From assembly GCF_000203815.1 (NCBI RefSeq), contig NW_004457734.1:7233-71232 (forward strand): DNA of 64,000 bases. Direction: 5' to 3'. Position numbers and translations under genes: made by a program. Positions 14,882 through 64,000 of this stretch are shown one piece after another. Position 1 is the first letter of the stretch, and every line of letters starts with the position of its first letter. This DNA is from Cavenderia fasciculata (lineage: Eukaryota > Evosea > Eumycetozoa > Acytosteliales > Cavenderiaceae). The notes under the pieces were generated by a model, which searched no databases, was not told the DNA's origin, and saw only the letters and a list, made by a program, of their open reading frames with translations.

Positions 14882-17800
14882 TTAAAGTGAAGCGTCACCT
14901 GCTCTTTTCAATTCTTCTTCAACTTTTGGTAACATAGTAGTAGTAGTAGTGGTACTAGTGACATTAGAGGGAAGTTGAATTGGTTGAACTATAGGTTTGA
15001 CAGAATCAGCTCCGGTCATCATCTGTTTAAACAACATGTTTTGCATCTCGATTTGATTCTTTTGTAATTGATGCATTTGTTGTATTTGCATTTGTTGTAT
15101 CTGCATCATATTCTGAATACTCTTTTCTAGTTGTGATTGATGTTTTTGTTGTTGCAACATCATCATACTTTGTGGTGACGTTTGTTGTTGATTCTTTATC
15201 GTAGTGGTAGTAGTCATCACACCAACATTGTTGTTGTCAACTCTATGATCATCTATATTGTCTTGTTGTTGTTTGTATTGTTGTAACGAATGTAGTGGAG
15301 TTCTAAACTTGGAACCTGCAGTTTGTTGGTATACAGTTGTAGTTATATGTGGAGTTTTATGTGATAGTCTTTGAGTTTGTGGTGTAGATGGGTATTGTGG
15401 TGGCTTTGGTGTTATTGGAGGAGCGACGACTACCACCGAGGGTTTAGTTGGTGTTTCGTTAGGAGGAATAAACACTGGTGGAGGTGGTGGTGGTTGTGGT
15501 GGCTCGAATCCATGCGTTGATGATAGTGGTGCTGGTGAAGGAGGAGGAGGTGGAGGAGGTGGAGGTGGAGGAGGTGGAGGTGGTGGGGGAGCAATAGGAA
15601 TATTGGTTTTGTATGTACTTGCTGTGGTTGGATTATAATTATATCCAGAATTCTCCATACTTAAAGATTGATGTTGATTTTCCTGTTGGTTAACAAATAT
15701 TTGACGTTGTTGGTGTTGGAATTCAATTGGATGTTGTGAAATATAGATTGGTGCACCAACAGATTTAGGGTCACGATGATTCAATAATAAATGTTGTATC
15801 ATAGGGTCAATCTTTCCAGAATTTTGTTGTACAATAATTGGTTGAATATATCTATCCAAAGGTGACACATTTCTGTATTCTATTATTGGATTTGGATTTG
15901 GAGGATGAACAACAATAGGTCCAATTGGAGCGGCGGCCAGTGTTGTACAACTAGTGGTAGTGGTAGTGGTAGTTTCACCTTTTAATATCTTTTGTTCTTT
16001 TAGTGGATTTACCATTGTATCTGGACTATAAATCTTGAGCATGTCGAGAATCTTTACAAAAATGTAATGCTTGGCAGCATCTTTACATTTAATTAAATGA
16101 CTCTTTCTCTTTTTTGGATGCAAAACTCTAACACGATTACTTTGGTCGACTTTGAGACGGATAGCATATTGTTCCTCCTCGACATAGATGATTGATTCAT
16201 ACTTTACTGCAAATTTAGTACGGAATCCATCTGTATCTTTTAGACAAATGATACGTTTGTTGGTAAACAAAATGGTGCGTCTATTTTTGTAGATTAAATG
16301 TTGAATGTACTTTTCATCTTTTGATATCATCTCTGAGAGAGGCTGGTTAATTTGATCGGGTGTTAGGCGTTTGAGTTTTCCTTCAGATATCATATTGGTA
16401 AGGAACAAGAATTGACCATAGGCTTCAACATCGTCATATGGTCGTAATGGTAGGTCAGAAAAGAGAGGACGAGGGAACCTGATTCTTCGTCGTTCGATAT
16501 TGAGTTGAGTTGAGTTTTTGACACCTTCAGAGAATTTACTAACAAAATCAAATCCTCCAGCTACTGGTTTGAGTACAAGACCAGCAACACCTTTTCCGAT
16601 ACCTTTTATGGCACCAACAGCTCCTTCCTTTTTGGCACCATAATAAGGTAGACGACCAACACCAGTTAATGCTCGATGCAAGGCAATGACAGCAGTCTTT
16701 CCGCCCAAAGCAAACCCTTGAATGACATTGCTTGGTGTCTCTCCAACGATAAACTGTCTTTCTATAATGTATTGAGGATCCATCGACATGTTGGCCAATG
16801 CCTTGGCTCCACTCGACGATAGTCTTGTTCCGCTATCAAAGAGTCCATAGACGGTATGCTTGGCAAGACTCTTTGATCCAGCCGATACACCAGTTCTAAA
16901 GGAAGTTTCTTCGGGTCCAACCAAACCACGTCCAGTGTTTACAAAAAACTCTTTAAATCCAATACCAAAGTTTTTAAACAATCCAATTGGATTACCCAAA
17001 AAGTTGAATGTACCCAAAATCTTGTATGCTTCTGACAAACCTTCAGAGAGATAATGTCTAAAGAGTGGATTGAGAAGCTCTGCATTTGTTCCAAAGGCAT
17101 GAGAGAATTTAAATTGATGCAAAAAGATGTGGGCATTTTGGAAGCTAACTAATACAAATCCAATTCTTCTAAATGCACGAACCATTGGCGCATCCAATGC
17201 TCGAATGGTTGATCCACCAGATTGTTTGGCCAAATCAAAGGTAAGGTAACAACTTATGGGTTCGATTGATAGAGTTTCAAAATACATCTTTTTACCATAG
17301 ATTGATGGTAAAGCACGTTGTATCATTGTGTCTATGAATCCATCACCAATATCTTTTTGATAGATTGGTTTTAACATGTCTACATTGTGCAATGCTTTTT
17401 TGGTTTTTTTGTTTCCTGTCCAAAAAGAGAAATCTAAACTATTAAAGAAATCCAATAATACATAAAGGAATTTCTCTTCTACTCTAATATTTAATTCTTG
17501 AATTCTCAATGAAACATGATGGAAATAATCTATATTTTTCACTGTTATAAAAAATAAAAATAAAAAAATAAATTAATTTTTTGTTGTTTTTCTTTTTCTT
17601 TTCTTTTTCTTACTTTTGTTTGATTTAATTAGTTTAATATGAAGGAATGGTAGGTTTGGATCATTCTTTTCAGAGGCAAAAAGTAAAACAGGATGAGAAA
17701 AGGGATTGACTTTTGAGAGTTGATTGTCAATTTGAAGATTATCCAATTTCATTTCAATCTGTTGAATGAAATTTGAATAATAATAGTCGGTAGAGATTCC

Positions 17801-20800
17801 TTCGACAAAGACATACAACAACTCTGTTGGGTTTGAATTGATGAGCGATACTCCAACACCTCTAATATTCATTCTAATATGTTGTATTGAGGTTTCTTGA
17901 TCTGGTACAACGATAGCTTGGTAAGTTGAATCGGTCAATGTAAGAACTCTTGTCGATTCTTCTGCCTCTACCACTGCTTTAACTATAATTGCTTGACCTT
18001 GATATCCAAAATCAATTGGTTTAAATATTTTAATCCTGTCAACCTTTACAAAGGTTTTACATAAAACTTTGTTGTTTGATGATGACGTTGCTGATGGATG
18101 ATCATTGTTGTTGTTGTTGGTTTGATCAACCAATTCTTCTTCTGTCAGTTTGTGAGAGGCAACATCATCGATTTGTACATTTTGTGAGAAAAAGTGTACC
18201 TCTAAAATGTGTTCGTCCATTGGTTCATCCCAAACAAATGGTATTGATTGTTTGGCACCGACAAATATCGATTTTCCACACTTCTTTTGTCTAACAAGGA
18301 TTGGGAATTGAGTCATGTTGTTAATCTTGTAGGGTGGATCATTCAACTCGGTTGCAATGATAAATAATGTTGCACCTTCCAAACATGTTTGAACTTTAAG
18401 ATATTTTAATTGGTGTGGATTGATTAAAGAGTTGTTTGATTCAGAAGAAGAAAAAGAAGAAGAAGAAGAAGAGGAATCTTGAGTTGCATGTTGTTGTTGT
18501 TGTTGTTGTTGTTGTGTGAGAGAGTCAACAATTTGAGGGTTCTGTTTTCTATAGATTTGATACTTTGATGGCAGATTAAATGAATAATCGGCAACATTTT
18601 CAATCAAAAACCCTGGTGACCAACCATCATCATTATTCCCATCACCATAGTCCATGTCAAGTTTTGTTGAAAGAAGATTTGTTTTTGAACGGTGTTCAAG
18701 GAAATAATAAAAAGGTATTTTCTCTCCAGTGCCTACACGTACTTGATTATCAGTACCCAATTGTTTGAAAATGAGTGGATAAGGGAATTGGTTGAAAAAG
18801 ATATAACGTGGAGCAAAAACAATGATCTTTGTTTTAAGATTAGGTGCAATATCTACTGAAACACCAACATCATATACCCGATCTGAACTTTCACATTTGA
18901 TCTCTTTGGCCATATGTTTTGTGGTGGTAGTGGTGGTAGTGGTGGTAGTGGTTGTGGTCTTTGATCTTGTTGTGAGTGTATTCACAGCCAAAGAAGTTCC
19001 TTGATGCGATTGATGAAATATAGAGTTCTTTTTATCACTAAATACCTCAACTCTTCCTCTGTCACCAATAGCAGCAATCGATACTTTGTTTGACCACTCT
19101 GAATCTTGACCAACTCGCAGACGAATTGAGCTATCAATATCTTTTGTCTTTTTGAATGAAAACATGATTGGATTGACCTTTTGGTTGTGATCTTCATACC
19201 ATTGGTAAGGATCTACAGCTATGGATGTCTTTTTGTTTTGAGGATTAATTTGTTGTTGCTGTTGTTGTTGTTGATGTTGTTGATGATGATTATTATTTAA
19301 ATAAACGGTACCATCATTATATTCTTTTGACTGATAAGTTTTTTTACAGTAAAGATTTAAACCAGTCTTGTTGAATATCCAATATTGATTGTAGAAAATA
19401 ATCTTTCTAACTCCATTAATGGATTCAAATTCCATATTAACATGAAGTGGTCGATCATTATAAGTGATATGAATAGGATGGATATTTTGGTTATCCAATT
19501 GTTCTAGAATAATTTTTTCTTCGCTCCACGTATCTTTTAATTTGAATCGAACTTTAAACTTTTCCAAAACTCCAATGTCATAGACCTCGTCCTTTGTTTC
19601 TGGTCCCAATTTGTGTTCAGTCACATTGTTTGAAAATATTAATGCTGGATGATGACCATGGTGGTGGTGGCGGTGGTGCCCACTAGAGTGGTTGACTGCT
19701 GCTGGATAACTTCCTCCATTTAATTGATAGGTAATTGGAAAGGGTAATAGGTTTTTAACCTTTAGCATTGGACATAATCTAATGATTGAACATCCTCCCT
19801 TTAGTTTTACATGACACTTTACGACAATAGTCTTTTCTCCATCAATTGTGCAAGATGTAAACATGGCAGTATCTTTGGTATTATTGACATCCAATGTTTC
19901 AGTGGACCACTTGAATTCGTTACCAGAGGGTTTAATCTTGATAAGAGCATCCTTCATTCGAGAAGTAGAGGTTGGAGCTCTTACTTGGCGAGACTTTATG
20001 ATTGAAGACATGTTGGGAGGTTGAGCAATGGCAAAGCCAGATGAAACGGTTGCCACATCAACAGAAAACGATGTCATATTTTGAAAGATGATGGGGAATC
20101 TTAGTGTTATAAACTTTGTTCCTTTTTTGATGGAAACGTTTACAAAAAGAGTTGTAGATGTGGTACTGTCCAATTGAACTTGATACTCGTAAGTTTTGAG
20201 TCTATCCATTGGAACGGCAATTGTCTTTTCGATACCCAATAACTCGATAGACATTACCAACTGATTGAATGTTTCCAAAGAGACTTGAACATCGGGAGCA
20301 AATTTGATGGGCATTGATTCACCGGGAATTAAATCAAAATAGATACCATAGCCTTCAACTTGAACCACTTTTTTACCGTCACCACATTCATTCAAGACAC
20401 CATCTACTTGTTTTCCTTCATGAGTCTCTAAACGATAACGAATCCTTGAACCCGTTTGATTACGAACAAAGAATGGTGCATAGGAAGACTTCCAAGCACC
20501 ACTTCCATGTTTCTCGCCAGACGATAGTTTTTTAATCTTTCCAGTCAATACAGTCAACGAGTCTTTAAGTGCTTCCTCACTTGATCGTAAATCCTTTTCT
20601 TGTGGCTTTGCAATCAAGTTCCATGGATAACCAAATTCTTGACTATAGGTAGTGAGGAATAAACTGAGATTGTCCATCATTGGGATGGTGATATTGAGAT
20701 TTAACAGATCCGACGATGAGAGATCGATGGAAAACTCTTTTGAGAATGTCAAAAATGATTTCAACATCCACTGTTCGAGAAAAGGCTCCCAAAAAGCAAT

Positions 20801-23800
20801 ACGATTGTTGAAATAGTCCAATGAAATGACTGCATCTATATCTATTTCTATTTTAGTCTTGATCATCATTTTGATAAATCCATAGGCCATCTTGAAATTG
20901 AAAAGTGGAGTATTCATATGATTCTTTGTCAAATCGTCAACAACTAAAACCTCCATATTTTTAAGACTAATAGAAATTTGGGTAATAGCTTTCTTATGGA
21001 TGGTATTTTGAATTTGTCTTGGTGATAATTCTTCATCAAAATCATCTTCCCAACTACCACTTTCAACCCTATTTCCTGCTGCTGTTGCTGCTGTTGCTGT
21101 TGCTGATGGTAATGAAGTTGTTGTCTTTACTATTCTTGGTGATTCTTCTATTGGTGATTCTATAAATTCATTACTATTTCTTAGACGTGATCTGACTTTG
21201 GTTTGATGAACTCTCAACATTTCAGCTGAACGACATTTTAGATGATATAGTTTGTTCATATCACTATTGACAGTTGGCACAGATTGATTTGATCCAACAA
21301 CTATGCCAGATTCTGTAATTGTTGGTTTTGGAGTGGTGGTAGATTGGTCATCTCTGAGGTGTTGTAAATTGGGTCTTGCCAAAATATTTGGTACTGATGG
21401 TCTTCTTGCACGAGGTGGTTGTGGTAAATTAAGTGACATTGAAGGACTAGTCGTAACGACTGCTGCCTTTGCAATGGGGGTATCAAAAGTTGTTTGTTTC
21501 TTTCGATATGGAATCGGTGTCTTTGATGGAGAACAATTGTTGTTAAACTGGTGAGTTGCTCTCTCGTTGTCAACGACTTGACTGGCTGCGCTCTTGATTT
21601 GTCTATTATAGAGAATAGTTTGCAATGTTTCATAGATACCAAGCAAATAACGATATGATCGACCAGAAAAACTAATGATCAAATTGTTCAATTCAAGGAA
21701 AAAGAATTGGTTTCCATCTGGCAAGAGAGCAATGTGAATGTTGGTACTAAAATCTTCAATAAAGATTCTAGCACTTTTATGAAGAGATTCCCACATTGCT
21801 TCTGTTCGATTGTAGGAATAATGTCGAGAAACAGGCTTTGAGTTGGTACGACCATTGTGGTAAAACAAAGAGGCTGAGGAGGAGTGTTTCATTGCACTAG
21901 CAAGAGGACTTGACACTGTGGTGGTTGATTTGTTTGCCAATAATCCTTTATGACATTGATAAGTGAGTAGTAATTTCATTAAACCATCTGCACCAAATTG
22001 AACAGAAGATGACATTTCACTGCTCATCAACATAACAACTCCCTTTTCATCTACCAAACTACCAATCATTATATTTGCACATTTCACTTTTAATTCAATT
22101 GACATGCTAAGTATCCATTCTTTTGATATTATTGATGGTCTTTGAATATTTGTATACTCTGGATCTGATAATGGTGATAAAAATGTCTAAAATAAAAAAA
22201 TTATAAATAAATAAAACAATTAGTTATCTATCTATATAAATATATATATCTTAAAATTTTTTACTTACAATTAATTTATCAACCCAATTTAAATCAATAA
22301 AGATAAAAAGTCGATTAATTGTTATCGAATTTCTATTTACTGATCCACCATTTGATACTGAAAGAATTCTGAATCTGCCATCAACCATTTCTTGAACATC
22401 ACTACTTGAGATTGAAAGTATTTCCTGGTGTGGTGGTAATGCTTTGTTCTTGTCACTAATTGCTAATCCTCCAACTGAAAATGATATTTCAATATCTCCA
22501 TTGTTATAATAATTTAAAAACCCTAATGGTTTATTCACTATTAAACAAAAGAATTTATCCTCTCTTTTAGAAAAAAACAAAAAAAAAAAAAAAAAAAAGA
22601 TTAATATTAATATCAGTCATTGTTTAATTGTAATATTTTTACATACTTTGTTACTTCATCTTCAAGATTAAGATTAACTGAATCTGTAATATCTAAAGTT
22701 AGACTAACTAATTTACTTTGTCTTTCCTTTGAGTATTGGGACGATAGAGGTGTAGGAATTACATTTTGGTTGATATTTTGATTGAAAACATTTACCAATA
22801 GATTGTATTGGTATTGATTGAGCAATAGTTGAATATATTCAATTCTCATCATAATCTTTAATTCAGAAGATGTCTTTGATGTTTCAAAAAAATAAACAAA
22901 ACTGAGATCAACATTGATTGGTCTTTTAATAATAGCCTAAATAAATTAAATAAAATAAATAAATAAATAACAACATTATTAGAGAGATTTGTTATGTTTT
23001 TTACTACAATTTGTTACATACATTTTGAATATCTAATTGACCATTATATGAACTGACCATAACATCAATGATTTTCATAAAGATTACATCGGCAGCAGGA
23101 TCAGTTTGATCTAACCAAAGTGAAACTTTACCAACACTAAGTATAATCGATTGTTTTGAATTTGGATTCTTTGGAAGAATAAGAGTATGTTCATCGATTG
23201 TAATGTCCAAGTTGGTAATTGATTTTCTTTCAAATAGAATCTCTTTTTGTGGTTGTTCTGATTCAAAGTCACCTCGGTCGGTTTCTTGATTATCTTTGGT
23301 ATCTTTGGGATCTTTGACCTGTTCGATAACATATAGAGTAGGGAAACTTTCTTTGAATGAAGTACTGATATCGTGACAAAATACTCTTACCATACAAATG
23401 GTTTGAAAGAGTAGAGTCAATTGAATCTTTCCAATAGCGACCTGTACAACTCTATTGTGACCCCATTCCTTTTGTTTTTGCATACTGTGACTAACTACAT
23501 GCATCTTTACGATTGGTACTAGCTTTGGATGAGATTGATGTGCAATTAAAATATCTCTATGTAATCCATCCGGTCTAGATAAATCCAAGAATTTCATATC
23601 TCCTAAAGATAACTGTAAAAAGAGTTGTCAATAAAATGGTCTAATAGAGAGTAAAAAATAAAAATAATAATAATAATAATAATGTGGACATACATTAAAT
23701 TCAAACAATGGTAATTGAAATACACCATTAATATCGACCTTGTCAAATTGAAAAGATGCAATATCAAAGTCACTTGCACTGAGAATCAAAGAAAAGCTTG

Positions 23801-26800
23801 GAACCTGTAAGCATATCTTTGTTTTCAGATCATTTGGATCAAATTCTGTGACATCTAAACGGTCAGACAACTTCTTGGGCTTAACCTTTGGTCTGTGTTG
23901 ATGGTGCAGTAGACGAGATAACGAATCTTCATATCTCGAACCCTCGATGGTTAGGATTGACTTTTTCTTTTCGTGGAAACGATTGGCATCTGAAACTGCC
24001 TTTCCAAATATTTGTATCAAAGCTACGATACATTCCTTTGGGAGATTAACTCTAACGTATTGAGTCTTGAGTGACGCAATAAAATCGATATAGTCATAAT
24101 CCAATGAGTTCTTACTAATTGAAGAGAGGTGAAGGACAATTGGATTGTCACACATTCCATTTACCAATTGTTGAGTTGCCATTATACCTCCATTGTAAGA
24201 CTTTTCCAATAACCTGTGGTCACTATCACTTTTTCTTCTACCAAATGGCGATTCTGATCCTAATGAAGATGGTGGCGGTTGTTGTTTTTGGAATGGATAA
24301 GCAAATATGGATAGAATTGGTATGGTTGAATGGGTATCTGTGATGCTAATACTGGCAATATCAAAAATAACCTCCATATACAATAATTTTGCAAGACTAC
24401 GACAACGCATCGATGATATATTTAATGATAATCTTTCTTCTTTTTGATAAAAAAAGTTGATTGATATATCACTTGTTGTAAATAAAAACTTTAACAGTAT
24501 ACTATGTGTCAATTTTTCTTTTGTTTTTTTTCTTGCATGCAATCTATGAAAAGATTAATAGAAATTAGTATAAAAAATTAATATATATATATTTTTTTTT
24601 GTACATACATTGATTTAGTATTTGAAATGACAGATAAATGAATTCCTGATCCTGCACGCTTTGGTTTTTCATTTTTTAATGATACTACATCGTACATTTC
24701 CGATAGCTCTGATGTAGACTTTCTATCCATATCTATAAAATATTCTAGTAGACCATTTCTACCAACTATTCTAGATATATCATAGAGTAATGTATCACTC
24801 AAATCAAAATTGATATTTGATAAATTTGAATGGCATCTAGAAGATAGAATAATGTTAGGGGTGGTTTGGTAAAAAATATGTATTTAAAAATCTGTTGCTG
24901 CTGCTTAACATACATTATTTGAGGAATGTCAAGATTAAAAGGATCAGAACATAATTCCAAAAACATATTAAAACTAAATGGTTTCATAATACTCTGATAT
25001 TGGGACTGGTGGCACATTTTAATTGTAAAATTGGTCAACTGAAATGAAATACCTTCATAGAATTGAGAATTGTTGACATTTATACCATCAAAGTTCCATT
25101 CACTAGATTCAAATGATCCACTTGTCAGATCATCATTTTTGTTGTTTTTAAATGAAGACTGTTCTCCATCCAAATAGTCATCAAAATTCTTTGTTTTCTT
25201 TTCAAATACATTTTCTTGGCCATCTCCTTCCTCCATAACGTTATCATCTTCACTATCAAATCTATCGCTGCCTGATGTACTTGTAGTATCTTGGTTATAG
25301 GGAATTGTTAATGCCTCTTGATCACTATTATTATTATTATTGTTGTTGTTGTTGTTGTTGTTATTATTGAATTCTTGATGACGTTGAAAATATTGACTAT
25401 GTTGATTTAGAGTTGATTTATGTATCTGATTTACTTTAAAGAATTTATCCATGTCAAGTGGAACATTTGTCTGAGGTACTGTACAATTTGCTTTCCACCA
25501 GGCAACACGTTCAGTTAATTCTTTTTTGTATCGAATATATCGCTCATTGTCTTCGTCTGCTTGAAGAATATCTACTATTTTTGAGCAATTCCATCCAGCA
25601 CTGATTGGTTGAGTCTTGAGCAATAGGTGACCAGAATTGATGACCAATAGCTTTTCATAGTCGTGGTCTGGGAATATGATTCCAGGAATGTGTACATCGA
25701 GGTCAATATCTGCAGACTTTTGGTTGCGCAAGAGATGTTTAAGCTCTCTCATTGCCATCTCTTGCAACACTTTGAGGTGTTTGAGGAAGGAATACTTGAG
25801 TGTATCGAGTGCTTCTTGAGATGCATGTGTAAAAAAGGCAATCATAGTATCGACAAATGGCTTACTATTGATAAAGTAGAATGGCGAGAGATGGAGCGAA
25901 AGACTCCAGTCGGTTGCACGGTGCTGATCTGGTGGATTAAGCTCCAACGTGAGATTGATCATCTTGGATCTTGGAGGTTCGTCTGGTATGAATTGGTGCT
26001 TTTGTCTTTGTTGTTGAGACATTCGAATATCAAATCTACGACCATGTTGTGTCGATGATAAGAAACCTTTGCTGTTGGTTGAGGCAGTAGACGAGAATGA
26101 GGCGGTGGAGGTATCTTGGGTAGAAGAGGTTGAAACCGATGATGTAGAAGAGGAAAGATTCATTTCCTCGGTGTGATAATCGTCAAATGGTTGTTTGTCC
26201 AAGATGAGGTTCTCAAAACGAGCGTTGGTGGTAATCTTGTCGTTCAAATGAACAGAGTCTACTAAAAGTTGAATCTTTTGGTTGAATCTTGAAACATAGA
26301 TAGTCATATCGATTTCGTGAATCTCAACATGAGCCAAAGGAACTGGTTCACCAACCAATCTAAAATCGAGTACTTGCATCTGAACCTTTTTAATATTGCA
26401 ATAAAACTTGACCGATACGTCACTTGTAATCTTTTTGTTTGATGATGCATTGAGCATTGATTTTAGATCAATATCTAATATCTTTTCCAACAATCTAAGA
26501 TCCTCTCCACTAATAGACGAGGCACCACAAGATATATTCATATTATTTGTTGATTGTCTTCTTCTACCGAATCCAAACCATCCCAAGTTACCAAGTCCTC
26601 CATAGAGAGAACCTAGCCACCAACCTTCATTTACTTGATGAAATCCAGATACATCAGACTTTCTCTTTTCCTCTACTGCCTTTTCTGATATTGTTCTATA
26701 TAATATTACATCTTCATATGATAACTTTTTTTCAATCTCTGTTATTATTAATTCTTCTACTGGTGATACCTAAAAATAAAATTAGAAATAAGCAAACTTA

Positions 26801-28157
26801 CTCTCTTTTTTTTTTTTTTTTTTTTTTATACCTTTTTGTTTAATAATTTTTGAGAAGCAATTTTAATATAAGTATCTCTCATTACTTTTTCCTTTTCGAC
26901 ATCTTTCCAAGACATTTGTTCTTCTCGTTTGGTTCGAAGATCTGATAGAATAGACTTGTAGGCAAACTTCCACCATATCTTTGCGTTGCCTTTGACACTA
27001 ACTGTTGGACGATGTGACTTGTATCGAAGTACCTTTCTCCAATCATGTACAAAAAATAAGAGATTCAGCATGTCACGATATTGGATATCCATCAATTGAA
27101 TGTCTATTTGTTTTAGGCCAAGAACCATGTCGATCTCTGTCACTAGAGAAGTATGCACACCATCATTTGTGACCTTGTCTCGTTCAACGTCATTGATGAT
27201 CATCTTTATGAAACCACTAACAGGATTGATAATATATTTATGATCGATCTTTATCTTTTGTCTAGGAATTTGGTGCATCAATATGACATCCATATCGGCA
27301 GGTGTAACATATTTGGTTTTACTAAATTGCGAATCCCAATAGACAGACAAGTGAAAGAGTGATATTAATTTAAAACAAGATGAAGATAAAACCGATGACG
27401 ATGATGACGATGAATATGGTTGATCGGATGCAGCGGCTGCAGAAGAAGTGGCAGCAGAGTTTGCAAAATTGTTAGATGATGACGATGATGACGACGACTG
27501 GTGATGATTGGATGCTGGTGACAACAAAGGGATCCATTTATCGTTGGTTGTTTCAAAATTGACACCCTCCAAAGTGATACCAATAGAAAACATTTCATCT
27601 GGTGTTGTTTTAATGTCTTGATAACAAATATGAACATTTGTAACTTTTAATACCAAACACTTGACCACATTTTTTATCATTCTAGTTAGGAAACCCTCCG
27701 TTGGGCCAGATGTCTTTGAAAAGGGAGTGGTTGACGATTGTGATGTCTTGGAAGCAATGTTTGGATCCCCAACGAGTGACTCGTCTATTGACTCTTGAAT
27801 AGATTCTATCTCCTCTCTTGATAATCCTGCCAATGGATTGGCTCCAGATGACTCTTTCTTTGGGATGGTTGTAATTTGATGAAAATCCTTTCTTCCAAAA
27901 AGCAGATACACTCCATCCACTGAAACAGAGATACGCTCCTTTAAAAATCCCAACCAAGGAATGTGTATGACCACCTTTTTTATTACACCTTTTTGTAATT
28001 CGAATGGTAATTCATGTCCAAATATATCTTTTTTTAACTGTAAATTCTCCAATACTATCTCTCCTTTCCAGAAAGGAATTGATAATGAATCTAATCCTTC
28101 TATATAGTTTCCTAATACCTTTTTTAGTATCGATGGTAATATTTTTGATATTACCAT
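14882..28157 (-). CDS. VPS13-family bridge-like lipid transfer protein (4,222 aa)
   Basis: VPS13 proteins sit at organelle contacts and move phospholipids in bulk along a hydrophobic groove. Nine exons: 26832-28157, 24914-26769, 24609-24836, 23694-24543, 23022-23612, 22647-22936, 22269-22563, 17614-22186 and 14882-17541, total 12,669 bases (4,223 codons). The chorein N-terminus is clear (GNYIEGLDSLSIPFWKGEI, HIPWLGFLKERI, VYLLFGR). Middle: repeated groove modules broken by Asn-, Ser- and Thr-rich inserts. From about residue 2,400 (SYAPFFVRNQTGSRIRYRLE) comes the VAB/SHR-binding region, followed by the ATG2-like C-terminal segment (GVGRLPYYGAKKEGAVGAI, KGVAGLVLKPVAGG) and a PH-like end (LHPKKRKSHLIKCKDA). 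Then follows an unusual tail of about 330 residues with 18 consecutive prolines and many glutamines. Which paralogue (VPS13A-F or TipC) it matches cannot be decided by eye. Confidence 0.95.
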
Positions 28158-30434: not shown

Positions 30435-33400
30435 TTAACGTTTCATGTGTTTGATATATCTAAGAGCAAGACAACCAACGGTAAATAGTCCAATGATATA
30501 ACCAGCCAATATGGCAACATTTTTAAATTGAAACTCTTGATTAAAGCCATAACGAGCGATCATTTGTTCACCACTCTGAATCGGACAATAAGGAATGCTA
30601 GTGGTAGCATTTACTTGTATTAGTACCTCACCTTCTCCATTGGGACAACTAAACTTTTGACCAATCATTTCAGTGAGTGATAGAGTTTCCAAGCCATAAC
30701 GTGTAAAGGCAAAGTAATGCATCCATTTCCATGCCTCTGGTAGATCTGTCTTTGGTATAAAGAATCCACCGAAAAGACCAAGAAAGTTGAGTCCCATACC
30801 ACAGAGAAGAGTGGCAATGGGTGTCGTTGGAAGAACCAATGCAAACATTGTGGCCATGGTATCGTAGCATGCAATGACCATCAAATAGACACCCAACGTG
30901 AAAAAGAACTTCCAACCACCATATCCTGGATCTAGACCAGTGAGCCAAAAGAATGGTATCCAGAAGCAAAAAGCTGTCATCATCATGAGTGGAAGATCGG
31001 TTATAAATGATGCAATCATATATAAATAAGAGGGATAACAACCACTTGCACTGTCACGATAATAAATGGCTCTATCTTGGACGACCAATGGAATCTTTGC
31101 AATAGAGGCCATACCAGCAAACAAAAATGAAAGGAATATCATTGACAATTTGTTTCTTGCTCCAGATTGATCAGAGTCGAGACGAAGGAACATTGTACCT
31201 ACAATGAGTGCAGGAACAATCGATCGGAGGAATCTGATAAAGATTGGTGTTGGTCGACGAATATGATTGAACCATGCTCGTTTAAGAAGTGCACGAAGTT
31301 GAGAGCTCATGGGAGCAGCATAGGTGCCTACATAGGATGGAGGTTCAATAGTTGGTGGAACTACACTATTGGATTGTAATTCTTGTATGACAGACTTTGA
31401 TTGAGGTGATTGGATGTAGGAAGTGATTGGATCGGCACCTGCATGATGTTGCTCTGCAATCTCTAAAATATAGTCACTTGGATTACGATCTTTTTCCTCC
31501 ATGACATATCCAAGTCCTTCAAAGTAGTTGAGGATGGTTTTGCTACCCTCGCCTGTTTCACCAAAGTAAATGACCTCTCCCTTGCACAGCATTAAAAGTT
31601 GGTCAAATTGTTCAAAAATTTGTTGTGATGGCTGGTGAATAGTGCAAATGACGGTACGACCAGTTTCGGCGATACGTCGAATACAATTCATGACCTTGAG
31701 TGCACCGCTGCTATCCAAACTACTCGTTGGTTCATCGAGGAAAAGAAGATGTGGATCCGATGCCAATTCAATACCGATGCTTACTTTTTTACGATTGGCA
31801 AGTGAGATACCCATGGTTGGATTGAATCCAATCTTGGTATGTTGCATCTTGGTGAGGTTGAGAACCTTTAGAATATCGTCAATCATTTGAGCACGTTCCG
31901 AGTTACTGTAACTGCTAGGCAAACGACAATTGGAAGAGAATTCAATGGCCTCACGAATAGTAAGATTGGCAGATAGGATATCTTGTTGTTCAACATAGGC
32001 AGTGAATCTACTAATATTCAAATCGTTAATGTTTACACCATTGACCTTGATCATTCCAGACATGATACCAGCATTCTTTCTCTTTGATAATACATCCAAT
32101 AGAGTTGATTTTCCAGCACCAGATGCGCCCATTAGTGCAGTAAGTCCAGGTTTAATGTAACCATTGATCTTGTTCAACAGTGTAAGAGTAACCTTTTCTT
32201 GTTTTCCAGTTTGTGTATTTTTACGATCTACATTGACCGTATAGGAAAGTTCTTCAAATGTCATATAACAACCTTTCATTTTGTATTGAACCTTTGTACT
32301 TTCACGTTTCTTATCCTTTTTGACCTTGTTGCGAACATTCTTTACGATTGAAGGTGGCTTTTTAGTTTCGAAACGAACAAATCGAATACCCATATAAAAG
32401 ATAAAGAACATTACCATTGAATAGGCAATTGAAATGACAATATCGATCCATCTCCAATAATAGTTTTCATTCATACCAAATATTTCGAGGAATTGATCTC
32501 CATTGGTTCTTGGACATATTTGAACACCATTGTAAAACTGATTGGCAATGTCTGTTGGTGGGATGAGCTCTGATTGTTTACAAGTAAATGTTTGATCGTG
32601 TAACTCGTTACTAGCCAAAGCATCCAATAGATATTTGAGTGGTGACAGATAGTAGACCCATACCCAATACTTGGGGATATTGGGTCCTGGCAACATATAA
32701 CCTGAAAAGACCATAAATGTGACAACAATGGCTGGTGTAACCATCGATGTAACCAATTGAGATTCTGAAAGTGCTGAAACCATTTGGAAAACGGCTTGAC
32801 TGACAAAATTGGTCAACATCATACATAGTACAAATACTATAAACGAGTCGGCTCTTGCTCTAAATCCAGCAGTCCAATAACAGACCACTGAATAGAGTAG
32901 TGCTTCGATTAAACTGATAGGAATCTTTGTAATGACCAATGTAATAAAATATGAAAAGTTTCTATAATACTTTCCATCCTTTTGATCGTAAAATACACCT
33001 CTTAGATTGTAATATTCATCAATCGACCCATAGGTTGTCCATATGAAAAGAACCATAGAAAAGTACATTAAACCGAATCGGTTTTGTGCATCTGCCTGAC
33101 TGTCGTCCATTTGGAAAAAGAGGGATCCAACAACAAATCCCATGAAAAGTGCCTGTAAAAATCTTGTAAAATATTCTTGTCTAATGATCTTCATGATCTT
33201 GATTTGTCTTTTTATCAATAATTTGGTTTCATACCAAATCGGTGGTCTTTCCACTGGATATAGTTTATGATCAACAAATTTTGTATTATTTGCCAAGTTT
33301 GTATATTTTGTTGTTATATTTTGTAATTCTTCATATTCTAAAATTAAATAAACAATCAAAAGGTTAGTATAAATCTCTTTAATATAATATAAATGAAATA

Positions 33401-46555: not shown

Positions 46556-48383
46556 TTACAACTTGGTCAATGATTGAACTTGATCCAAAGTTGGTACGTC
46601 TTGAATATTACCACGAACGATCAAGGTTGGTCTGGATTGCAACATCTTTGAAGCGACACGCTTGATATCTTCGGCAGTGACTGAATTGATTTCTTGAACA
46701 AATTCCTCTGGGGTCAATACCTTGGCATTGTTGTACAAGGCTTGTTTACCAACAAACTCCAAAGCTCCACTACGACTGTCAGTTTGTTCCAAGACGGTAG
46801 TCTTTGCAATATTTTTAGCACGATCAAGTTCTTGAGCAGAGACGGCAGACTTGGCAACAGTAGCAAACTCATTGGCAAGATTGGCAATTACTTGACCAAC
46901 TTGAGATGTTTCGGTAGATTCGGCATAGACACCAAAGAGACCGGTATCTTGATAGTTAATGTTGATGCTATCGGTTTTGACAAGAGAGGATTGGTTCTTT
47001 TCCAAAAGAGTAAAGAGACGGGAGGTCTTTCCATTGCCTGGAGCAGTCTTTGGTTGGATTGATCCACCACCCAAGATAGCCTTCAAGACAGCTGAGGCAG
47101 CAACATCCTTGGTGTTCTTGTATGATACACCTTCAAAGGCCAAGACAATGTGATTGTTTCCAGTGACATAGGTGATTTCATCACCACCAACATACTTGGC
47201 AGATTCACCCTTGTTGGCAGCACCACCATTGGTCTTGCCAAACTTTAATTGTTGGGCCTCTTTGACGAGATCCTTGTGGTTCAAACCAACACCGACTAGG
47301 GTCAAGTTAGATGGAGTAAAGGCAGAGTTGGCAACGTCAACAACTTGTTCAGTGGCAAGTGAACCGAGGTTGCAAACTGGTGCAACCAATGGACGACCGA
47401 GGGTACGACCACGGTAAGCTTGCTTGTGGAGTGATTCAAATACTTGAGTGACTGGACAGTGTTCGAGTGATTCAGACTCTTCGATGGTTTGTTCAGTGCA
47501 ATCACGAACTTCGTGGTAGGCCAACTTTGGGTTGGTAATGTTGGACAAACTGGTCAACATTTGCTTTGAGAATGGTGGTAAAACTTCGCTTGAAATCAAT
47601 AGATTGTCTCTTGAGATTTGTGCAAATGCTGTAGATCCAATCTCGGCAATCTCTCTTTGAACTTGTAAATAGATTTTTGATTCATTGCTCTAGAGGAGAG
47701 GAGAGGAGAGGAGAAGAGAGGAGAATATTGATTAATGAGTAAGTTTCTTTGGTTACCAACAATATATATTTTGGTTGTTGTTTAATATTTACTTGGAAAG
47801 CCAAGTTCTTCAAGACTTGGTTGGAACCAGCATTGGTTTGTGACTCGAATCTGCTACCAGTGTTGACAAAGATACCAAGAGCGGCAGCTGGTCCAGTGAA
47901 ACCACCAGAAAGTGATACAACCTTCATTCCATTTTCAAGTGTAGTCAATTCTGCTACTCTCTTGCTTTCGATAAAGCTTGAATACTAGAAAAATATAGAT
48001 AATAAATATAATTAATAATTGTATTATAGTGATGTTGATGATGATGATGATTGTTGTTAGATATTTAATGAGATATAGTCATGTCTGTCTGTCTGTCTCT
48101 CTTTCTCTCTCTTTTGTCAACAGTTAAATCATTCTCTATCTGTGATGAATTCTATTCTTGATAATGGATAAATTGGATATGATATCGTATCACTAACCAC
48201 ATGTGGCAGCACCGCGCACAAACATATCATTACGATGATATATTGATCCAAAATGATACCTGTCTCCAAAAAACGATCTAAAGTGTGATGATGATGATGA
48301 TGACGATTAAACTGATATGGTGATGATGAATGAGCACATACTGAACGAACGAATGGCTTTTTAACGACTAATCTTGAAAGCAT
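46556..48383 (-). CDS. Cytochrome bc1 complex core protein 2 (UQCRC2/QCR2-like; 455 aa)
   Basis: M16-family core subunit of respiratory complex III in the mitochondrial inner membrane. Exons 48342-48383, 47793-47984 and 46556-47689 sum to 1,368 bases (456 codons). The first 14 residues (MLSRLVVKKPFVRS) form a basic presequence. The zinc-binding HxxEH of active M16 proteases is replaced by QVLKNLAF, so it is proteolytically inactive. The region around LGGGSIQPKTAPGNGKTSRLF and DTGLFGVYAEST fits core 2 better than the alpha subunit of the processing peptidase, whose glycine-rich loop would read GGGGSFSAGGPGKGM. Intron 2 begins its 3' end with a GGAGA minisatellite (about 47,691-47,723). MPP-alpha remains a less likely alternative. 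Confidence 0.88.
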
Positions 48384-48622: not shown

Positions 48623-50161
48623 ATGATGATGATACATTGTAATTATTGTTGGAAAGAGTTCATTGTCAAGGATAATTGCTATATAACATCATGTCTTCAT
48701 TGCTTTTGTGAACCATGTGCAATGCAACAATTCAAAGATAGAATGTGTCCAAAGTGTGATTCTGCTCTCACAAACAAGTACGAACCAAACTACTGTAGTT
48801 TGATCAATTATTGTTGTTGTTGGAGATACGTTAAGATATGATAATAATAATAATAATAATAGAACGTTATCTAGCATAGTAGTCTTGCTTTAAATATTGT
48901 TGTTTTAATCTACTACTAACAAACAATCTCTCTTTCTCTCTCTCTCTCTCTTCCTCCCGTCCATCATTTAGCGGATCAATTTATGGAATCATTATAGAAC
49001 CATCTATTGATAAATCTGTAACTAATATATTCACATCCTTTTATCTCATACATACAGACACCATAACATATTACTAATTCTCTCTCTCTCCATTTGAAAA
49101 AAAATAGATACAACTTTTTGGATTGAATCCAAAAGAAAGTATGACTCATTGTTAATACTATTAATCATTATTTACTAATAATCTTTTGATAGTATTTGAA
49201 ATTGCAGAGAAATCGGTAGATTTTTGGACATATCAAAATAAATTATACCTTGAATGTGAATCAAAGAAACTTGAATATACCCAAGACTATTATCTCAAAT
49301 TGAAAGATACCTTTATGAAAACATCTGAAGAGTATGAATCAAAGTTGGATAATCTTAAGAAACAAATTACAATACTCAAAAAAGATAGTGACAATGACAA
49401 AAAAGAGATTGTTGAACTCTCTGAAAAGTGTGCTGAAAAGACAAGGTAATCTCTCTCTCTCTCTCTCTCTATCATCTAACTTTATATCTATTTTTTCAAC
49501 TACTATTAACTTTATTATTTCACATATTTGTCTCAGACAAAAAAGGAAATTGGAAGAATTATATGAATCTTTGAAAAAAAAAGTTGGACGATGCACCTTG
49601 CAATCCTACTACCAGTTCATCGATTCTGGAGGAAACATCTTCTTCTTTTTTTAAACCAATAGACCACACTGGAAAAGATCATAATAATAATACTAAATTC
49701 CATAGTATGTTTACAACGTCAAATCAACAAAAGGGATTCATGATGGGTTCATCATCATTCAAGTCGCCTGGTGGTGTCTCGATTGGCAACAGTTATATCC
49801 AAAGCCAATTAAAATCACCAATCCTATTTCAAAAATCAAATATTACTACTACATCAAACCAATTTCAGCAGCAAAGGGCAAGGCCAAATCCAACTGTAAT
49901 CCCTTCGCCAGCATTGGGTGGTGATAAATCTTTCAATTCAAACAACTTGAACAATCGCTACGTCGTTGGCAGATCTCAGAGAGTAGGCGCGGATCAACAG
50001 AATTCTTCATTGTCCCCTAGTTTTAAATCAAATTCAAATTCTGATAGTAAGTAAAAGTTGATGGTAATTTATTTTTTAGGTGGTATTGAATCTCTCTTCT
50101 TTCTTTCTCTCTTCTCTCTCTCTCTCTCTTTTCAACAAAGAATTTTCTTTTATTCGAAACC

Positions 50162-50202
<41 letters not shown>

Positions 50203-50235
50203 ACCCCCATTGCCAATCGTAGAACTACCAGTTAG
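48623..50235 (+). CDS. HEI10/CCNB1IP1-like RING E3 ligase, one apparent frameshift (362 aa if corrected)
   Basis: Homologue of the ZMM-type RING proteins that mark meiotic crossover sites. Exons: 48623-48777, 48972-49017, 49108-49138, 49193-49445, 49537-50046 and 50141-50235. RING: CNYCWKEF, then CLHCFCEPC and CPKCDSALT. The diagnostic segment across two introns reads LFGLNPKEIFEIAEKSVDFW-TYQ, matching the human CCNB1IP1 segment with FWTYQ. A coiled coil follows (residues about 85-190), then a Ser/Asn-rich tail and a poly-Gln run. The coil frame and the tail frame differ by one base. The switch must lie at or just after the A9 run (49574-49582), and exon lengths sum to 1,090, one more than a multiple of three. 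Uncorrected, the protein ends at about 49,654 with the RING and coil intact. Confidence 0.82.
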
Positions 50236-50449: not shown

Positions 50450-51424
<975 letters not shown>

Positions 51425-60159: not shown

Positions 60160-63100
60160 CTATTTGTACATTGAAGCAGTATCACCAAGATATACAAGAA
60201 TTTTTGCGAGTTGGCCAATATTTTCTTTTTGTCTGTAGAGAGCCAATTGTTTGACAACCTTTGAAAGGTTCTTTACAATCAAAACATGAATGTTTCTGAT
60301 ATCCTTTTGAACCTCTTCACGAGAGGATAATGGTACATAGTCTCCCTTATAGTCGGGTACATCGGTTAGTTTATCGAAATATTCATTGAGACGACCGATA
60401 TTACCAATAATAAAACGATTGACAGGGATCATAAATGATTCCTTTTGACCAAACTCTATGCCATTGGCAAGATTTTGAAGTACCTTTCCAATGAGAACGA
60501 GTGCTCTTGTGGCTTCTGGTCCCGGTTGTTCGTCGACAAGACCTGCTGTGAATGGACCGATGATAGCGGGACAAAGGAAACGTAAAAAGATAAATCCACC
60601 AACTGAAGAGTGCTTATTGTCTGGGAATCGCTTGACAACTTCTTGTTGCAGATATTTGCTAATCTCACGCAACGACATGGGCAATTGATGAAGAGAGTCA
60701 ATGATAACGTCTGTGAATTTTTCAGACATTTGAATAAGATTCATCATATTGGTCATCAATTCTTCACTACCTTCATTAATCTTGCTTGGATCGACTTCGT
60801 AGCCGGCAGGATTATCGATAATCTCGCGTACCAATGGTGTAATGACCTTGATGAGATATGGCATACCTTTCATCTTGGTAAAGGCTGTCATGAGTTTGGT
60901 GGCAGTGGTATTGCTACGGAAAAGGGTAGATGGATTGGCTGTTGTTGTTACTTCAGCTTCGATACCAGTGTGAATGATTGGACGTATCTTGTTGAAACTG
61001 TCAAATATTCTGGCAATTGAATCGATCATTCTAGATTGTTCATCTTGTTGACACGGTGAAACGACACATTGAACGACTTGGAGTGATGGACTGGCCAATA
61101 GTTCTACCAGATTGTTGTATTGTTCCTCCAAAAAGGTCTCGGTAAATTCATTGGCAGTGGGTGGATCCAAAATAAAGGACCAATCGGATTGTTCCAATTC
61201 CAACATGATTTGGTGTGGATCAATGTCCTTCTTTTGAACGTTTACTTGAGAGGCAGATGAAGCACCAGCAGTATCGATACCATTACCATCTGGCAATAGA
61301 ACTGATGGTTGAGCTGGACTACCAGTTGCAACCTCACCAATAGCATTGGGAGACATAAATGAAGATGAAGCAGATTCTTGATGTAAATTTTGTGGACCTC
61401 CACCTTGCTTTGACGAACCGGTAGAAGATATGCTACTGTTACTACCTCCAGTTGAAAAGGTGGATACGACAGTTTCAGAGATGGTCTTGGACCATTGTGT
61501 ACGACTTTGTTGACGGAAATGAGAGTCTAACGAGTCAAATGAAGACTTCATGGCTTGGAATCTTTGAAGACCTCTTTCAAAGTATTCTTGTTGTGCCTTC
61601 ATACAAGCATAGAATAGTTTGAGTGATCGGTTTTGAATTTGGACACCTTCCTTGAAAATGGCATCAAATTCAAAGGCAGTCTTGTCTAGAGTCTTTTTGA
61701 GGTTTGAAACATCTCTCTCGGCGTCTACCATCTTTTTGTCGGTTGGTTGGAGATTCTTGGCCATAGAGTAGAGTTTAGAGACAGCACTTTCATATTCAGT
61801 GTGTGCTTCAAAGACACGTTTACGCATTTCAATGATGAGTGGGATGAAACCTTCTAGATCCTCTGATACATTGGCCATTGGTTGGGAAAAGGCGCTATTG
61901 GTTCTTGTTGACAATTCAGAACGCAGATAACCAATCTTTTTGATGGCATTTGAAAAATGATCGAGACTGTTGGAGAGCGAAGTGTCGACGGTTCCTTCAA
62001 ACGATAGTTTGGCCAACACCAAATACTCTGAAAAGTGACCTTGTTCCTTGAAGGATTCTGGTTCTACTTCATAGTATTTCTTGGACGACTTATTCAACTT
62101 TTGACAGGTCTTGTTAAAGTTTCTGAGTGCTTCAATCTTGTTATCATACTCTTTGAGATAGGATGAAGAGTCATCACTGGCAGATGGGAGATTGGCTTGT
62201 GAAGTGATGTAGGAGTTGAGCATGCTTGGATTGTTGATGAGATTGAGAATGTTTTGACATTTGGCATTCTTTTCTTCGAGGAGGTTTTCGAGATCGACCA
62301 AACCTTGATAGTCAATGTGTGTGTTTTTAGTGTACTTTACCATGCCACTAATGTTCTTTTGGTAACGTGGAACAACGAGTAATGGTTCAATGAGAAGGGC
62401 ACGGAGATTAAACTCTTTATAGTCATCATCAGTTTCAACCTTTTTACGTTCCATTGCCAATCTTTCACATTCCTTGAGATAGGCGCATACGGGTGAGTTT
62501 TGTTTCTTGATCATATTGTCCAACATGTAGATGGAGAAGGGAAGTTTGTCAAGATATTGATTAAAGACACCGTCGGTAGACTTGAAGTGGTTCAAGAGAA
62601 TGTCACCAATCTTTTTCTTGTTGTTACTCCAAAGGTTGAGACGATTGTTCATCAGATGAAGTGTGTTGCTGTTGCTGTGGTAGATCTTTTCAATGACATT
62701 AAAGATGGTACGAATCTCTTCTTCCGATAAAAAGATGTATGGCAAGTGTTTCATATTCTCTGGCAATTGTTCACGATCTCTGACGAGCAATGGGTTGAGG
62801 AAAATCGATCTGATAATATTGAGTGAACGGACATAGGTACGTTGGGTTTCGATCAACTTCCAACAAAACTTGTCTCTAAAGGAACGAGTAGTGTCAAAGA
62901 GTGAGGCATTGTGATTCTCACCACAAGAGACAGAGATAAAGGTTGTCTTTAAAAGAGAGTCAATCTTTTTGGGTTTGTTTTGGTCTCCTTGGGCGTGTCC
63001 CAATTGTCCAAATGGATCCTTGCCACAGGTGTAAATCTTTCCAGAATCTGTCAAAAAGGCCATATGACGACCTCCGCAACTGATTTGACGAATCGACTGT

Positions 63101-64000
63101 GATCTCAATCCATCCACCAACTTGGGGTGCAACTCTGATTGATTGGTTCCGTGTCCCAATTCTTGTCCGCTACCCCATGTATATACATCACCACATTCAG
63201 TCAATGCAGCAGTTGAATAATGGCCACATGATAAACGTTCGATATTTAAATGTTTCAATGCTGGCACCATCATTGGAACACTGATAATGTTGGCACTACC
63301 CATGGCAGCTCCATTACCAAATACCAACACCTCTCTTGCATTGGTCAATACTGCACAATGAGTACTGCCACATGCAATTTGAATAATATTGTATTTCTCC
63401 AATGAAGTAACTAACATTGGTGTACAATTCTTTTGGGTATCACCTAAACCTAATTGTCCATATTCTGATGTTCCCCATGTAAATACTTTACCATTTTCTA
63501 ATAAAATAAATAAAAAATAAATAGTGTTAATACTCTGATTCATTTCTACGATCTATTTTTTTTTTTTTTTTTTTTTTAAACATACTAGTTAAACAAATGG
63601 TATGTTTTTCACCACATTGAACTTGAGTTACCCAGTGACTGGTCATTGTTTGGACTACTTTTGGTATGGTTTGATTTAAAACATCACCATGACCCAATTG
63701 ACCATCTTCACCACATCCCCAAGTTAAAAGTTCACCATTTGATTTTAAAGCTGCTGAATGATAATAACCAATTGATACCAATACAACTTCTGATAATGAT
63801 TCAACTTTGGTTGGTAATAATTGATCTAAAATGAAAAAAAAAAAATAAAAAAATAATATTATTAATATTTGTTGTTTTTCTTTTATATTTTTGATGTTTG
63901 TTCTTTAATTTACCTTCAAGACTACCATTACCAAGAGTAGAAAGTGGTGGATTCTTTACACTACCTCTACCCCACATGTAAACATCACCATTCTCTGTCA
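60160..64000 (-). CDS. RGBARG-like RCC1-RhoGEF-BAR-RasGAP protein (5' end outside window)
   Basis: In Dictyostelium, RGBARG is a multidomain protein that coordinates Rac and Ras at the rims of macropinocytic and phagocytic cups. Visible exons: 63914 to the window end, 63586-63825 and 60160-63497; phases agree. In order: RCC1 propeller repeats (VYMWGRG, LLTWGCGEDGQLGHG, VFTWGTSEYGQLGLGD, YTCGKDPFGQLGHAQG); a DH domain (about 62,880-62,100; LIETQRTYVRSLNIIR, LRALLIEPLLVVPRYQKNI); a BAR-type helical region (about 62,060-61,500); a Ser/Gly-rich linker; and a RasGAP domain (about 61,170-60,200) with arginine finger LFRSNTTATK and FLRFLCPAI. The stop is at 60160-60162. All catalytic landmarks seen are intact. 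At least 1,220 residues are in view. The start codon and further RCC1 repeats lie beyond 64000. Confidence 0.95.

Follow-up and report, generated by a model that had tools for sequence, protein, structure and literature searches.

The dictyostelid Cavenderia (Dictyostelium) fasciculata very probably carries an ortholog of HEI10/CCNB1IP1, the predicted gene of which lies on the plus strand at positions 48623-50235 of the window, i.e., of the whole stretch of 64,000 nucleotides that was analysed. HEI10 promotes DNA exchange between chromosomes in the meiosis of animals and plants. The RING finger, the FWTYQ-bearing linker and the coiled coil follow one another on this strand in the order proposed in the preliminary description, and the gene limits given there were likewise borne out, with the start ATG at 48623 and the last stop codon ending at 50235. 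The four-exon model, on the contrary, had to be abandoned; six coding pieces are required. In the splice model, built from the sequence alone, they are predicted at 48623-48777, 48972-49017, 49108-49138, 49193-49445, 49537-50046 and 50141-50235, and are separated by five introns of 194, 90, 54, 91 and 94 bases, all of the GT-AG type.

The first piece (48623-48777) supplies the ATG and the RING finger, recognised by the Pfam model zf-RING_5 above its cut-off (E 1.6e-8), with the eight ligands of a complete C3HC4 set in the arrangement C6-x2-C9-x14-C24-x1-H26-x2-C29-x2-C32-x9-C42-x2-C45. The second piece (48972-49017; GSIYGIIIEPSIDKS), with GT-AG boundaries, an open phase and a codon margin of 9.6 bits, is the linker that aligns with human and Arabidopsis HEI10, while the short third piece (49108-49138; codon margin 3.8 bits) adds IQLFGLNPKE, the linker turn preceding the coiled coil. 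The fourth piece (49193-49445; codon score 28.9 bits) contains the FWTYQ segment with the greater part of the coiled coil, which ends in the fifth one, the core frame of which (RQKRKLEELYESLKKK; 49537-49654) runs shortly to a stop. The spliced core amounts to 177 residues and ends at a run of nine A. For the codon-usage test, trained on 16 long open reading frames of the window (9516 codons), the fifth piece was counted twice because it changes frame, and the predicted frame was the best among the three forward frames in all seven stretches; in the three shortest of them it led by no more than about 1, 4 and 10 bits. As a signal in the opposite direction, introns 4 and 5 each contain one weakly positive forward frame (4.4 and 4.5 bits, respectively), and intron 5 also a reverse frame of 7.1 bits.

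The window, with about one third of G+C, contains a number of other recognisable genes. Next downstream on the plus strand, at 50450-51424, lies a Rab6-type small GTPase in several exons (best match among the PDB sequences Rab6, E 2e-90), and upstream, on the opposite strand, an M16 peptidase at 46556-47689, with an inactive-domain model matched on 46556-47599 (E 3.5e-22), which we take to be probably a mitochondrial processing peptidase or a core subunit of complex III. Farther off, all on the minus strand, are a VPS13-type lipid transfer protein in pieces (14882-28157), with the N-terminal, adaptor-binding and C-terminal models found on four of the scanned frames; an ABC transporter frame (30435-33359), with the ABC2 membrane domain ahead of the ATPase; and a single frame of 1127 residues (60160-63543) with RCC1 repeats, RhoGEF, BAR and RasGAP domains, the predicted product of which would be an unusual signalling protein joining Rho activation and Ras inactivation.

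The assignment to HEI10/CCNB1IP1 made in the preliminary description is supported by searches in both directions. The top match of the core among 177,635 distinct PDB sequences (phmmer) was human CCNB1IP1, 9ges, over residues 3-175 with E 6.9e-21, followed at a distance by PCGF5 (E 4.5e-7), with 52 sequences matched up to E 10. In the reverse direction, human HEI10 was searched against the whole genome of 31.0 Mb (30,995,898 bases in 21 contigs) up to E 10 and gave two matches, both in the HEI10-like gene, with no second locus matched anywhere in the genome. The E values of this search are weak (0.0038 and 0.817) because the genome search goes exon by exon. Thus, the check by reciprocal best matches, with the PDB sequences forward and the whole genome back, connects this gene and HEI10 in both ways. 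The identities of the aligned residues were 53/169 with human HEI10 (31%) and 44/171 with Arabidopsis HEI10 (26%), compared with 47/168 (28%) between the human and Arabidopsis proteins themselves. The domain collections yielded nothing specific for HEI10: only the RING finger was above the cut-off in Pfam, and the three weak NCBIfam matches were far below theirs.

The RING finger by itself does not discriminate, and therefore the identity rests on the linker and the coil. Taken alone, the RING matched PCGF5 best (E 2.8e-5), with 9ges only sixth of 22 PDB sequences, which is what may speak for an unrelated RING and coiled-coil ligase of the PCGF, BRE1 or TRIM type, in which the likeness of the linker would be due to chance. 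The part outside the RING, however, matched 9ges with E 3e-11, the next match among the seven PDB sequences found being at 0.11, so that below E 0.1 it points to CCNB1IP1 alone. The same part scored 161 against human HEI10, a value reached by none of 2000 heptad-preserving shuffles (maximum 68) and by none of 2000 plain ones, and 125 against Arabidopsis HEI10 (0/2000 heptad-preserving shuffles, maximum 71). An unrelated ligase was rejected on these PDB matches and shuffle scores, and its probability is negligible. As to the separate parts, the linker with FWTYQ (from GL-x-P to FWTYQ) scored 69 against the human protein (0/2000 shuffles, maximum 48) and, more weakly, 35 against the Arabidopsis one, which was reached by 2/2000 heptad-preserving and 12/2000 plain shuffles; the coil alone scored 105 and 106, respectively, with 0/2000 heptad-preserving shuffles reaching these values (maxima 83 and 101). 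The putative coiled coil is accordingly collinear with that of HEI10.

A closer relative to be weighed is the RNF212/Zip3/ZHP-3 group of meiotic RING proteins, a member of which would be a SUMO-side partner in crossover control and not HEI10 proper. As described in PMC3405992, both groups share the layout of a RING, a helical segment and a coiled coil, and it is by this published layout that the group was weighed. Nevertheless, the match to human HEI10 extends over the full length at 31% identity, FWTYQ included, the stretch RQKRKL is common to Arabidopsis HEI10, and human HEI10 found no other locus in the genome; membership in the RNF212/Zip3 group is thus very unlikely. In plants, HEI10 is the sole pro-crossover RING protein, as stated in the preprint PMC13174674.

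Retaining the assignment to HEI10 proper, the Cavenderia protein may be compared with its known counterparts residue by residue. With human CCNB1IP1/HEI10 (9ges), it shares the RING, the GL-x-P linker, FWTYQ and the coiled coil, all collinear over residues 3-175, and has kept the residues P82, F95, W96, Y98, L77 and L105 of the human numbering, the first four of which belong to the tetramer core. According to PMC13174674, the human protein uses P82 and W96 for packing at its head-to-head joint and F95 with Y98 for holding the RING against its own coil, and the core of the bundle is built of L86 and L93; in the Cavenderia protein, the latter two are replaced by F and V, respectively. A point against the assignment is that the human residues Y22, R43, R63 and Y72, which make assembly or linker contacts, are changed as well, and at these positions Arabidopsis HEI10, like that of Cavenderia, differs from the human one. 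Unlike the human protein, the Cavenderia one has the canonical C3HC4 ligand spacing of the RING, and its S/N/Q-rich tail sits in another frame. Arabidopsis HEI10 (At1g53490) has in common with it the 44 identical residues of the 171 aligned and the stretch RQKRKL, but reads FYIAQ where Cavenderia has FWTYQ. The proposal of FWTYQ as a mark of HEI10 holds, therefore, for the likeness to the human protein, while the exact motif is not family-defining. Since P82, F95, W96, Y98 and L77 are kept, a tetramer is likely for Cavenderia HEI10 by analogy with the human structure. The Arabidopsis protein is reported to form no fibres in PMC13174674, and foci rather than fibres would be our guess for the Cavenderia one.

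The C-terminal part of the gene is less regular, a point absent from the preliminary description. At the nine A at 49574-49582, the core frame runs past to the stop at 49654, and the S/N/Q-rich tail follows in another frame, predicted at 49575-50046 within a frame open over 49575-50054. This tail frame is coding-like over 472 bases (38.0 bits, the two other forward frames scoring -50.7 and -41.8) and joins in phase the sixth piece (50141-50235; 25.2 bits, the best of three frames), which encodes poly-Q and the tail end TPIANRRTTS with the stop. A coding-like tail is thus present, only out of the core frame. The change of frame may stem from a misassembly, from an intron that was missed or from a truncation. 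A missed intron was sought across it, and five GT-AG candidates of 49 to 181 bases keep the frame open; all of them would cut out tail sequence, and none is compelling. If the frame change present in the assembled sequence were real, the tail would be lost and the gene would be either truncated or a pseudogene derived from HEI10, a loss of consequence to the extent that in human and Arabidopsis HEI10 the tail is required for focus formation, as reported in PMC13174674 (a preprint). Such an outcome is improbable, given the coding-like score of the tail and its joining of the sixth piece in phase, unlike what is left by decay; a long run of A is, furthermore, a usual site for an assembly error, and the five introns that can be drawn would hold the whole frame open, at the cost of tail sequence.

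For an intact HEI10, the function in Cavenderia is inferred from the family, i.e., by analogy with the human and Arabidopsis proteins. By head-to-head pairing of its coiled coils, the protein would form a rod-shaped tetramer with the four RING fingers at the middle; it would collect in foci on the meiotic chromosomes and modify proteins at the recombination intermediates that MSH4-MSH5 hold, a few of which would thereby become crossovers. By a further step of the same reasoning, the macrocyst would be the place where HEI10 does this in dictyostelids, and the DNA lesions concerned would have an origin other than SPO11.

The partner genes of HEI10 were sought in the same genome, which contains six MutS loci. 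By their PDB matches, that at C11 is MSH2 (293.7 bits, with bacterial MutS next at 191.2), that at C5 is MSH3 (234.8 bits, MSH6 next at 179.5), and that at C18:386758 is MSH6 (215.5 bits, MutS next at 178.3), while the locus G000:C18:687956-688516 is of the bacterial MutS type (205.2 bits vs 171 for MSH2), and this sixth gene is possibly of the mitochondrial MSH1 type. The loci at C2 and C19 had no such class match among the PDB sequences (best 130.1 and 66.5 bits, respectively), none of the matched chains being an MSH4 or MSH5. The pieces of C2 gave 156, 44 and 24 bits with Arabidopsis MSH4 and 78.5 with Arabidopsis MSH5, and the pieces of C19 gave 90, 75.5 and 31 bits with Arabidopsis MSH5 and 60 with Arabidopsis MSH4. 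The best single match of both Arabidopsis queries was the MSH2 locus at C11, because it has the longest open stretch. Assigned by match scores, with no tree, C2 and C19 are best explained as putative MSH4 and MSH5, respectively.

Among the other meiotic genes, HOP2 is represented in the genome by one HOP2-type match (E 6e-10), the Rad51 family is represented by one strong and two weaker loci, taken without a tree, and the MLH3 query retrieved three MutL loci that were not told apart. SPO11 had no match in the genome with either of two Pfam models, each of which was positive in 4 of 14 control genomes, and SPO22/ZIP4 had none with its Pfam model in a search that carried no eukaryote control. 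The MER3 query of the genome gave no clear MER3; its best matches were two large helicase frames with two cassettes each, 1831 and 2087 residues long, which by their layout we take to be ASCC3- and BRR2-like and which speak neither for nor against the presence of MER3. Wherever both looked, this set of partner genes agrees with the 2008 Dictyostelium inventory as given in Table 2 of PMC2488364, in which Hop2, Mnd1, Msh4, Msh5 and Mlh3 are listed and Spo11, Dmc1, Mer3, Hop1 and Rec8 are left blank, a blank standing for putatively missing data.

A dictyostelid HEI10 as such has been in print since 2012: D. discoideum, a member of the same clade, is among the aligned HEI10 proteins by the legend of Figure 8A in PMC3405992, and that paper counts amoeba among the groups in which HEI10 orthologs are likely. 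The finding of HEI10 in Cavenderia is, for this reason, no surprise. In the literature on HEI10/CCNB1IP1 and Dictyostelium, with subscription papers outside the search, no account of its function in dictyostelids was found. The interest lies rather in the setting, in which the choice of crossovers is kept where SPO11 has been lost. Spo11-independent meiosis has reportedly been reviewed by Bloomfield (2016, 2018). The statement of the preliminary description that dictyostelids perform meiosis without Spo11 accords with PMC6369745, where recombination at high frequency without Spo11 is described for D. discoideum, SPO11 is said to be lost in dictyostelids and no break maker to be known, and with the SPO11 search of the Cavenderia genome. 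The retention of HEI10 alongside MSH4 and MSH5 indicates that dictyostelids probably still possess the later half of the usual pathway, in which crossovers are chosen, and HEI10 provides a means of marking crossover sites as well as a target for knockout. There is about an even chance that dictyostelid crossovers are designated by a reduced set of class I factors, namely HEI10, MSH4-MSH5 and MutL proteins, without SPO11, DMC1, MER3 and ZIP4, and with such a set HEI10 would therefore act on breaks of unknown origin. If this is true, the HEI10 foci would mark the crossover sites and may lead to the unknown break maker.
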